Source: Bermanella sp. (GTDB lineage: Bacteria > Pseudomonadota > Gammaproteobacteria > Pseudomonadales > Oceanobacteraceae). From it: a DNA stretch of 45,480 nucleotides. Where the stretch lies: contig JAPYOO010000008.1 of NCBI GenBank assembly GCA_029938135.1, positions 1 through 45,480 of the forward strand, given 5' to 3'. This document shows, piece by piece, positions 23,639 through 27,636 of the stretch. Below the pieces are notes generated by a model. It saw only the letters and a program-made list of their open reading frames with translations. It was not told where the DNA came from and made no database searches. The position numbers were made by a program, and so were the translations under genes. Numbering within the stretch: the stretch's first letter is position 1; the number at the start of each line of letters is the position of its first letter.

Positions 23639-24214
23639 TTACTTGGCTTCTGCACGGCCAGTAAATTTACGATCTTCAACGTTAATTTTAATACGCTCGC
23701 CGGTTGAAATATGCTCAGGTACTTGTACGGTTAAACCGGTAGACAGTACCGCAGGTTTCGTTCTGGCCGTGGCTGATCCGCCTTTAAGTGAGGGATCAGT
23801 TTCAACAATGACCAACTCAACCGTTGACGGCAAATCAAGGGCAACAGGCGCATCGTTTACCATGATAACTTGCAGGCCTTGAGTATCTTCGCTGATAAAC
23901 AATAATTCATCGGCGATTGATTCTTTGCTTAAACTGTAAGCAGTATAGTCTTCGCTGTCCATGAATACGTATTCGTCGCCGTCTGAATAAGAAAACGTCA
24001 CTGAACGTCTAAACAAGTCAGCCAAACTCAGCATATCTGAATCCTTAAAGGCTTCATCTATCTTGTTGTTGGTCACAACATTGTACATACGCATGCGATA
24101 GATACTGCCGCCGGAACGACCTTGAGGAACTGAACGTTCAATTTCTCGCACTACGTACGTTTCACCGTTAATCTCAACCGCGGTATTCTTTTTAATCTCA
24201 CTGGCTTTAGGCAT
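23639..24214 (-). CDS. yeiP: Elongation factor P-like protein EfpL (YeiP)
   Basis: 191 aa; [57 protein letters not shown]-like segment and C-terminal [39 protein letters not shown] as in YeiP. Confidence 0.94.
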
Positions 24215-24522: not shown

Positions 24523-25242
24523 ATGCGCGTATTATCCCTGCCGTTACCCGTATTGCTTTGTGCCACTCTTTTAAGTGCCTGTGGTTTGGTAAGTGACGAC
24601 GAATCTCAAAAGGTTACTTCCCACCATTTCACACCTGTATCGGGGCAGCTATTTGATACGCCGCTGGCGAATATGAAGTATCACAGCACACATTTCAGTG
24701 GCGTCACCAGTAGTCTTGGGGAGTTTTTATACAAGCCAAATGAAAGCATTAGCTTTAGCCTGGGTAACTATCAATTCCCCCAAATTAAAGCTGCACCTAA
24801 ACTAAACATATTAACGCTTCTACAAACAAAACAGATCACGCCATCAGTGTTAAATCTTAGTCGCCTATTACAATCAATTAGCCTTAAGTCACCTGAAGCT
24901 ACCTTGCTATTACCTGACTTAAACGGATTTGACTTAAGCCACTTAGACTTAAGCCAGCCCCCTTCACACTTTGCCAAGGATAGCCTTGTGCTGAGTGTGC
25001 TTGCCAAATTTGGCAACCAGAAAAATCCACTACAGCTTATCCCTCACCAACAAGCCTTGTATCAATTACAAACTCGCCTTTCAGATACGGTTAGTAGCCG
25101 TGAAGCTAGTGAGCGGACAATAATAAGCGAGACGTCAAATGGGTTGTTAACACTGATGAATAAATTAGCCGGTAAAGATGATGTACAAAGGTCTGTACAG
25201 TTAGGATCTATATCTTTGGCCAGTATGGCTAACTTTCATTAA
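24523..25242 (+). CDS. Hypothetical lipoprotein
   Basis: Lipobox LLSAC; FSGVTSSLGEFLYKPNESISFSLGNYQFP repeat-like surface motif. Confidence 0.75.
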   Translation: MRVLSLPLPVLLCATLLSACGLVSDDESQKVTSHHFTPVSGQLFDTPLANMKYHSTHFSGVTSSLGEFLYKPNESISFSLGNYQFPQIKAAPKLNILTLLQTKQITPSVLNLSRLLQSISLKSPEATLLLPDLNGFDLSHLDLSQPPSHFAKDSLVLSVLAKFGNQKNPLQLIPHQQALYQLQTRLSDTVSSREASERTIISETSNGLLTLMNKLAGKDDVQRSVQLGSISLASMANFH

Positions 25243-27017
25243 TCATTCATCCTCATTAAAACCCCCTCCCGTATTGAAGGGGATTGAGCCTTTAACGTTT
25301 GTCCATTTTGCTTCCAATCAAGTGTTCTTATCAGCTTTGGTAAACTTAAAAATAGCATGGATGCAAAACCCTCATCCTTATAAAAGTGAGCCATATTGTT
25401 AGGCAACAATTGTTTCAATTTCTTTGAAAACTCTGTGGCCACCGGGTCCCCCTCTCCATAAAAAATATGGCAAGGACACACAATCTTAGTTACATCAAAG
25501 CCCCACTCTTGAGTCGTCAGTATTATATCGTGCAGCAAGGCTTCAACTCCCTGCCTTACGCTCTCAATGGCTTGCCATTTTGCTCGGCTTTGAATTTGCT
25601 CAAGAGCAAGATAGCGGCTATCCACATCATTAAACAACCCTAACAAATGACGGTATGATTTATCGGGTTTACGTTTAAATTCAAACATACTTAATCGCAT
25701 GGCATATAACGCCATACGTGGCCATGCATGGCAAAATTGAGGAAAATGCCGGTAAAAAAATGGAGCGCCTTTGATTTTACTCGGCTCTACAAAAGGAGCG
25801 AAAGACTCAATCAACATCAACTCTTTTACCCGCGCTGGGTAAGCGTAAGCCACGGCCAAAGCAAAACATCCTCCTGCCAACGAGCCAATAAAATAAGCAG
25901 ACTCTATTTTCAAATGATCAAGTAAGCGCTCCATATCATCGGCAAAATCTAACATTGTGCTGTATACCGGCATGCTTGATAAACCAAAGCCTGCACGCTC
26001 AGGTACGATCAAATAATAACCCTGATCAAGCAAAGACTGCATATGAATAGGTGCTTCTAAACGGCAGCTAAGAGATGCATGGCATAACACCAGCGGTGTC
26101 TGATTAGTGTCGCCATAAACTCTAAATGACAATAAGCGCTTATCATGCAATTCAAGTATATGGTCTCGAGCAATCCATTGTGATTTTGTAGCTACGGATG
26201 GTTTATGCGCAAGAGGTGAACGCAGTAATAATGAAACCAATTCTTGTTGTTTGGCAGTACCGGTCTTTTGTAAAATAGATTTAATGTAATTTCGAATAGT
26301 GGCGACAGTACTGTTACGCATCTGTGCAATCTGTTCAGTTGAATAAGCACTGGCCAATTTACCCGCGATAAAAGCTTCGGTGGGAGTTAGCTTATACAAA
26401 TTTTGTAGCTGCTCATACTGAATGGCCACATTGGGTTGCTGCGAAAGAAATAACGCTGCCACCGCAGTACTTGGCACATTTCCACTGTACATGCTTTGCA
26501 CTTGATCAATAGGACTAAGCATGGCCAACAACGAGGCGGCCTCACTAGAATGACGGTTAACCGGAATATCCAACAACATCGTTTGTGCATCACTATTGGT
26601 GTGCTGACCTAGGGTTTTTAGTTGTTTGGCAATCTGTAATTTTTGTTTGTCATTACCAATATTCAATGCTGCAGGCAGTTGTTTCACGCTATTAATATTT
26701 AATACTTTTAATGCGCTTTCATTGGCAAGTGTTACTTGTGCATTTTCATCTAACAGAATAATGGGGAACGGCAATTGGTCAGCAAGGGTGTTGTATAACA
26801 CCTGACTTTGCTGGCTTTCAAAAAATTTCTGAGAAATTTCAGAAGACTGTTTAAGGTGGGCTAATAGCGAATTGACAGTATTAACATTTTCTTGACCATC
26901 AATCTGGCCTTTAAGGTTTTCAACTAACTCTAAATACAGCTCGCCATTGGTAGCCGCTCCGTAAATAAGCTCAATAATTTTCTGGGAATCCTGCCCTGGC
27001 GACATGATGTGACTCAT
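25239..27017 (-). CDS. LuxR-type HTH regulator fused to a C-terminal alpha/beta-hydrolase-like domain
   Basis: PAS-like segment (LPFPIILLDENAQVTLANESALKVLNI), LuxR HTH (LTPTEAFIAGKLASAYSTEQIAQMRNSTVATIRNYIKSILQKTG), then hydrolase fold (LVLCHASLSCRLEAPIHMQSLLDQGYYLIVPERAGFGLSS...). Confidence 0.88.
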   Translation of the reverse strand: MSHIMSPGQDSQKIIELIYGAATNGELYLELVENLKGQIDGQENVNTVNSLLAHLKQSSEISQKFFESQQSQVLYNTLADQLPFPIILLDENAQVTLANESALKVLNINSVKQLPAALNIGNDKQKLQIAKQLKTLGQHTNSDAQTMLLDIPVNRHSSEAASLLAMLSPIDQVQSMYSGNVPSTAVAALFLSQQPNVAIQYEQLQNLYKLTPTEAFIAGKLASAYSTEQIAQMRNSTVATIRNYIKSILQKTGTAKQQELVSLLLRSPLAHKPSVATKSQWIARDHILELHDKRLLSFRVYGDTNQTPLVLCHASLSCRLEAPIHMQSLLDQGYYLIVPERAGFGLSSMPVYSTMLDFADDMERLLDHLKIESAYFIGSLAGGCFALAVAYAYPARVKELMLIESFAPFVEPSKIKGAPFFYRHFPQFCHAWPRMALYAMRLSMFEFKRKPDKSYRHLLGLFNDVDSRYLALEQIQSRAKWQAIESVRQGVEALLHDIILTTQEWGFDVTKIVCPCHIFYGEGDPVATEFSKKLKQLLPNNMAHFYKDEGFASMLFLSLPKLIRTLDWKQNGQTLKAQSPSIREGVLMRMND

Positions 27018-27220: not shown

Positions 27221-27439
27221 TTAAGCCGCTATTAAGTAGGACTCTGCCCCTTTCTTGTGACTTTTGTCTTTACGCTGATAAGCACCCTTGCCTTTTTTGG
27301 ATTTAACAATTCTTTGTCGATATACCGTTGATGTCACTAGGGCCGCTAAAAAGTTATGGTTAACCTGCCCTCGACCCGTTTCAACAGCCCCTTCATGGGC
27401 TTCGGCTAAAACATCATGCCGTTTAGATTTTTTGCTCAT
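27221..27439 (-). CDS. arfA: ArfA-like alternative ribosome-rescue factor
   Basis: GRGQVNHNFLAALVTSTVYRQRIVKSKKGKGAYQRKDKSHKK resembles the ArfA core (DNAxxALLxDPLFRQRVxKxKKGKGSYxRKxKH); ATG at 27439 preferred. Confidence 0.82.
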   Translation of the reverse strand: MSKKSKRHDVLAEAHEGAVETGRGQVNHNFLAALVTSTVYRQRIVKSKKGKGAYQRKDKSHKKGAESYLIAA

Positions 27440-27636
27440 GTCATTTATCCTTTGATTGGAGGAGATGAGTATATCAATTTTTAGGGGGATACAAAAAGTA
27501 GAATCTAAAATAGAGTGCATTTAGGCAATTAGCACTGCCAGCGAGAGTTGATAGCAGCCCTAAACAATGCGGTTGCTGAACTTATGACTCCATTAACTGT
27601 CATATTAAAATCACAGAAAAAGTGCATGGAAAAGCA

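Follow-up and report, generated by a model that had tools for sequence, protein, structure and literature searches.

A family of LuxR-type regulators fused to an alpha/beta-hydrolase domain, with recurrent loss of the catalytic triad

Introduction

In Bacillus subtilis, the alpha/beta hydrolase RsbQ signals to the PAS domain of RsbP, and in one scheme put forward for this pair (Model 2) the hydrolase itself is the sensor (Nadezhdin et al. 2011; PMC3183031). RsbQ is encoded on its own, beside a protein with an N-terminal RsbP-type PAS domain, and its Ser-Asp-His triad is both conserved and required; RsbQ-PAS modules act through a phosphatase, a histidine kinase or a diguanylate cyclase (PMC3183031). 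The plant receptor GID1 has lost the active-site His of its hydrolase fold while keeping Ser and Asp, and is non-catalytic; KAI2/DAD2 have been proposed as intermediates on the way to it (PMC3531792). How enzymes become receptors has so far been argued mostly from such plant hormone receptors (PMC3531792). Here we analyse a 45,480-nucleotide stretch of the marine bacterium Bermanella sp. (contig JAPYOO010000008.1, positions 1 to 45,480; hereafter the window), in which one gene encodes a PAS-like domain, a LuxR-type helix-turn-helix (HTH) and an alpha/beta-hydrolase (ABH) domain in a single polypeptide. Our computations establish its architecture and fold, the loss of catalytic residues, the conservation and recurrence of these losses among relatives, and conservation of the pseudo-active site.

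Domain architecture of the window protein

The gene and its parts are arranged as follows.

25239..27017 (-), regulator open reading frame, intact, 592 aa; ATG start, with a second in-frame ATG at codon 5
26763..27017 (-), N-terminal helices, residues 1-85, including a long helix at 45-81 (AlphaFold2 secondary structure)
26439..26762 (-), PAS-like domain, residues 86-193: two strands, helices, three strands (sub-cut-off Pfam PAS_8 match and fold topology)
26220..26417 (-), LuxR-type (GerE) HTH, residues 201-266 (Pfam GerE; alignment of relatives)
25320..26168 (-), ABH domain, residues 284-566, with a helical lid at ~405-505 (Pfam Abhydrolase_1; AlphaFold2; Foldseek)
26058..26081 (-), oxyanion-loop region H313-A-S-L-S-C-R-L320; H313, S315, S317 and R319 invariant in the window clade
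25869..25886 (-), nucleophile elbow G378-S-L380-A-G-G383, with Leu380 at the nucleophile position (sequence, alignment, AlphaFold2)
25446..25448 (-), codon GAC, acid position, Asp524 retained (9wlv alignment, AlphaFold2)
25365..25367 (-), codon TTT, catalytic-His position, Phe551; E-G-F-A-x-M invariant in the seven closest clade members

This domain order is the one given by a sequence-only reading of the locus, and Pfam and AlphaFold2 agree with it. The alpha/beta-hydrolase fold was identified by Pfam Abhydrolase_1 (residues 308-548, 60.5 bits), and an AlphaFold2 model (mean pLDDT 76, pTM 0.67; 37 aligned family members as input) contains a complete hydrolase core of the eight-stranded type, with the elbow between b5 and helix C, and its helical lid. 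Foldseek ranked the hydrolase 9wlv first among PDB matches, with an rmsd of 2.7 and a TM of 0.88 over the target. With the protein searched alone, GerE scored 21.3 bits over residues 210-263 against a cut-off of 23.5; in the whole-genome search it reached 25.6 bits, above the curated cut-off, placing the protein among LuxR-type (GerE) regulators. GerE was also matched in 36/37 relatives, and HTH residues T240, R242 and K246 are invariant in the alignment of all 37. The PAS_8 match is weak (residues 75-109, 19.7 bits against a cut-off of 21.8, E 7.7e-4), and the Pfam PAS model likewise falls under its cut-off; the predicted fold agrees with both the PAS and the HTH assignments. No autoinducer-binding domain was present among the Pfam matches of the window protein or the families listed for the 37 relatives.

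The hydrolase domain has lost its nucleophile and catalytic histidine

The sequence-only reading had placed Leu at the nucleophile position and Phe at that of the catalytic His, and both placements were borne out by alignment to 9wlv and by the AlphaFold2 model. At the elbow the sequence is Y-F-I-G378-S379-L380-A381-G382-G383, with L380 encoded by TTG (25878-25880); no other residue there is flanked by Gly at -2 and at +2, the G-x-Nuc-x-G pattern. In the phmmer alignment, L380 falls on the Ser of GWSGGG of 9wlv, D524 on its Asp and F551, in the context DEGFASM, on its His. In the model, L380 lies between strand 374-379 and helix 381-392, which is the position of a nucleophile elbow, while D524 follows strand 516-521 and F551 follows strand 541-546. 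Where a catalytic serine hydrolase has a Ser or Cys nucleophile, an acid and a His, the window protein has L380, D524 and F551, with no conserved substitute; the intact acid had gone unmentioned in the earlier reading.

A triad relocated to the neighbouring Ser and another His is unlikely, because Ser379 varies among relatives (S, T, M, T, T, V, V and A in eight members of the clade) and, of all His in the ABH domain, H313 of the oxyanion loop alone is invariant in the clade; a relocated nucleophile at Ser379 was rejected. Misalignment was ruled out by the agreement of profile and MAFFT on the nucleophile column in 133/133 rows, and sequencing error by an orthologue from an uncultured Bermanella (GTLAGG...EGF) and by sister proteins, whose elbows read GMLAGA, GTVAGG and GVAAGG and all of which carry EGFA. 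A pseudogene was likewise rejected. Loss of the catalytic triad is well supported, and we read the ABH domain in the window lineage as a pseudoenzyme, in which Ser is replaced by Leu and His by Phe and the Asp is kept.

Triad loss recurs across a family of fusions

Searches at the level of order, class, phylum and named genomes yielded 105 distinct full-length fusions and 28 free-standing hydrolases as relatives; an alignment-based scan found those in named genomes, where a single-sequence search gave no confirmed match. The window protein, which could have been taken for a single odd protein, is one of a family, some of whose members keep an intact triad. Hosts of these PAS-LuxR-ABH fusions are mainly Pseudomonadota (Alpha- and Gammaproteobacteria), among them Bermanella, Saccharospirillum, Oceanobacter, Thalassolituus, Marinobacter, Marinospirillum, Alcanivorax, Solimonas, Sulfitobacter, Roseovarius, Jannaschia and Paracoccus, together with two spirochaetes.

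Only 18/105 fusions keep Ser or Cys together with His (14 Ser-Asp-His, 4 Cys-Asp-His); the other 87/105 lack Ser/Cys, His or both, with Glu-Asn-Leu (9), Met-Asp-Gln (8), Cys-Asp-Arg (7), Glu-Asn-Gln (6) and Leu-Asp-Phe (4) among the degenerate types. The free-standing relatives, which have no HTH, keep Ser and His in 28/28 cases and the aligned Asp in 27/28. Chance is excluded as the source of this difference in Ser/Cys and His retention (Fisher p = 6e-17). Surveyed across homologues, the loss described by the sequence-only reading is conserved in the window clade and recurrent across the family.

The same survey bears on whether the domain could still be an enzyme with a non-canonical mechanism, relying on Asp524, His313 or water activation. 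Both of these residues are kept in the window protein, and two fusions elsewhere in the family (L181 and L183; DDH and DSH) retain His together with an Asp nucleophile, the arrangement of haloalkane dehalogenases. Judged by their residues, these two could be Asp-nucleophile enzymes, which would bring the possible enzymes among the fusions to maybe 20 rather than 18, and the Cys-Asp-His members may be active. However, the window clade has neither nucleophile nor general base, its single invariant His and variable Ser379 leaving no obvious stand-in, and the Glu-Asn-Gln subclades lack all three residues. We consider a surviving non-canonical activity in the window protein quite improbable.

The uncultured Bermanella orthologue (locus L068; same genus by genome search) is 66% identical to the window protein and has the same Leu, Asp and Phe. 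At genus level, full-length matches were confined to the window genome and one other (G004), and a plasmid search returned one match only, a free-standing type from Legionella. At six loci, frames of ~370-510 aa match only the N-terminal part of the query and its HTH, and the PAS-HTH core apparently also occurs with no hydrolase attached. Pairs of fusion regulators, in tandem or close together, are frequent (six loci noted) and sometimes differ in triad type (ENQ with ENL; CDH with SDH), which suggests possible heterodimers.

No NCBIfam model names this family, and we found no description of LuxR-hydrolase fusions or of such pseudoenzymes in a literature search whose coverage left out many subscription journals. 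The component parts are known; within the literature covered, the architecture and the recurrent triad loss appear undescribed.

Phylogeny and direction of change

In a family tree from which the catalytic columns were left out, the fusions form one clade apart from the free-standing enzymes used as outgroup (SH-aLRT 97). The window clade (SH-aLRT 98) comprises types DDW, LDF, VDF and ADF, and was recovered by a smaller, careful tree with support of 100/96. Parsimony gave 9 changes at the nucleophile (Ser/Cys versus other) and 12 at the His (His versus other), counts that give the number of changes and not their direction, on a tree whose deep forks are weak. Separate subclades replaced the nucleophile and the His with different residues. 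Since every outgroup member is intact, an active ancestor followed by several losses would be the simplest reading of these sequences, with the direction not proven. Some members keep an intact S-D-H, so the hydrolase was probably active when it was first fused.

The dead site is under constraint

Among the seven closest clade members, 15/29 columns of the pseudo-active site show no variation, compared with 38/254 in the rest of the ABH domain (p = 2e-5), and a new signature, H-x-S-x-S-x-R ... E-G-F-A-x-M, has taken hold. The site is also conserved in other degenerate groups (ENx/DNx, p = 0.009; MDQ, p = 2e-4), with no significant effect in the CDR group. A Glu-Asn-Gln member from Oceanobacter mangrovi was modelled with pLDDT 88 and pTM 0.82; its E366 sits at the strand-helix elbow, and its closest structure is again 9wlv. 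Between the window protein and the Bermanella orthologue, identity is 68% in the ABH domain, 53% in PAS and 89% in the HTH, and the ABH domain has pN 0.19 and pS 0.85, with dS saturated over most of the gene.

These data speak to neutral decay, under which the ABH domain would be a useless remnant of an ancestral fusion. The catalytic residues are indeed gone and the fusions are patchily distributed, as the genus-level search illustrates. Against this, the reading frame is open and under purifying selection, the predicted fold is intact, and the domain is retained in all 105 fusions, in Alpha- and Gammaproteobacteria as well as spirochaetes. Above all, no part of the domain is better conserved in the window clade than the former active site; we read this as repurposing, and neutral decay is barely credible. 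The proposal of the sequence-only reading that the fold was repurposed as a ligand sensor gains indirectly from the same result, as the most conserved columns lie at the pseudo-active site and suit a binding pocket; the ester- or lactone-like ligand that it named stays conjectural.

The principal competing explanation is that the ABH domain serves as a ligand-free scaffold for dimerisation or protein binding, like NDRG or neuroligin, which have the hydrolase fold but are non-catalytic. Lost catalysis does not by itself imply ligand binding, and the tandem pairs of several relatives could heterodimerise; the domain also has a weak match to Pfam Ndr (PF03096), which at 18.1 bits against a cut-off of 23.3 does not make it an NDR family member. 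Yet the conservation peak falls on pocket-lining loops rather than being scattered, and subclades have settled on different but internally conserved residues at the pocket. We therefore judge a pure scaffold unlikely, though much the most serious of the alternatives.

Neighbouring genes

Genes close to the regulator include the following.

24523..25242 (+), convergent gene for a 239-aa predicted lipoprotein with no Pfam family; its stop codon overlaps that of the regulator
27221..27520 (-), ArfA, alternative ribosome-rescue factor, just upstream of the regulator (Pfam, 70 bits)
23639..24214 (-), elongation factor P (EF-P) family protein with all three EFP domains; we take its N-terminus to resemble YeiP/EfpL rather than EF-P proper

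A related-looking lipoprotein gene adjoins the Bermanella orthologue (L068:7769-8383), and the 239-aa lipoprotein is a candidate target or partner only. Across the family loci, predicted exported proteins or lipoproteins are encoded by 28/89 immediate neighbours and by 62/395 other nearby genes (p = 8e-4). The exported neighbours include Ig-like, di-haem peroxidase-like and Lcl_C proteins. Ten of the neighbouring exported proteins, searched against Pfam, have no family in common, and the idea of one conserved target was rejected. In Marinospirillum alkaliphilum (L080:5437-9757), two regulator copies are interleaved with two exported proteins of 219-243 aa that resemble each other, an arrangement that would suit one target per regulator. 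PADLOC returned no match, and promoter and terminator scans, which scored below shuffle expectation, were not used.

Proposed mechanism

We propose, with a probability of roughly 0.62, that the window protein is a one-component regulator whose retired active-site pocket takes up a small molecule, probably a hydrophobic one, and leaves it unhydrolysed. The molecule would enter the lidded pocket and be bound, not cleaved; closure of the lid or pocket would alter the dimer state or the contacts made with the HTH/PAS part. This signal would pass to the HTH, perhaps via the PAS-like domain and the long N-terminal helix of a dimer, and the altered contacts or dimer state would change DNA binding.

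On a broader scale, one transcription factor family may have repeatedly turned an enzyme domain into a receptor. The series would start with an intact triad (Ser-Asp-His) and lead via half-dead sites (Ser-Asp-Phe, Ser-Asp-Asn, Cys-Asp-Arg) to wholly substituted ones (Glu-Asn-Gln, Met-Asp-Gln, Leu-Asp-Phe); every subclade would respond to a different ligand and act on genes close by for the envelope or surface lipoproteins. We advance this wider scheme more tentatively, at slightly less than even odds.

Several points weigh against the proposed mechanism. Ligand binding, allostery, DNA binding and control of nearby envelope genes are steps that we infer. The conserved site could also be explained as an interaction surface. 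The PAS assignment is weak, combining a sub-threshold match with predicted topology. The enrichment of exported neighbours relies on a home-made signal-peptide rule and is for that reason a lead, and the neighbour of the window gene is convergent, not divergent.

Comparison with known systems

The family may show how enzymes become receptors, as it offers a whole series within a single architecture, with a direct transcriptional read-out and in bacteria that can be cultured (Marinobacter, Alcanivorax, Oceanobacter, Sulfitobacter and Paracoccus). It would provide targets for ligand discovery in a new class of one-component regulators, and it bears on the question of what the RsbQ-PAS module senses.

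Several described proteins share parts of this architecture. Streptomyces PAS-LuxR regulators such as PimM combine a PAS domain with a LuxR-type HTH in one protein (PMC9774167, PMC3367932) and, judged by published descriptions, have no C-terminal hydrolase domain; the window protein shares their type of HTH and has a PAS-like topology whose Pfam matches stay below cut-off, a likeness of domain types only. LuxR receptors for acyl-homoserine lactones (AHL) have the GerE-type HTH in common, with an autoinducer-binding domain N-terminal to it; the window protein, which gave no match to such a domain, is not of that class, and its putative sensor follows the HTH. The 9wlv-type hydrolases (Abhydrolase_1) that stand alone have the same fold, lack an HTH and keep the catalytic Ser and His.

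The plant hormone receptors GID1, D14/DAD2 and KAI2 likewise use a hydrolase fold as receptor, a comparison of how they work only. GID1-type receptors bind a hormone in the old active site of a non-catalytic hydrolase fold. GID1 belongs to another subfamily and kingdom, and the window protein replaces both Ser and His; its output is predicted to be direct DNA binding, in contrast to the SCF-mediated degradation of GID1-type receptors. RsbQ-RsbP pairs a hydrolase with a PAS domain and the window protein an ABH domain with a PAS-like one, but the latter is a single polypeptide with a LuxR HTH as output and a lost triad, and so is not an RsbQ-RsbP module. RsbQ-RsbP and GID1 are nonetheless its nearest precedents.
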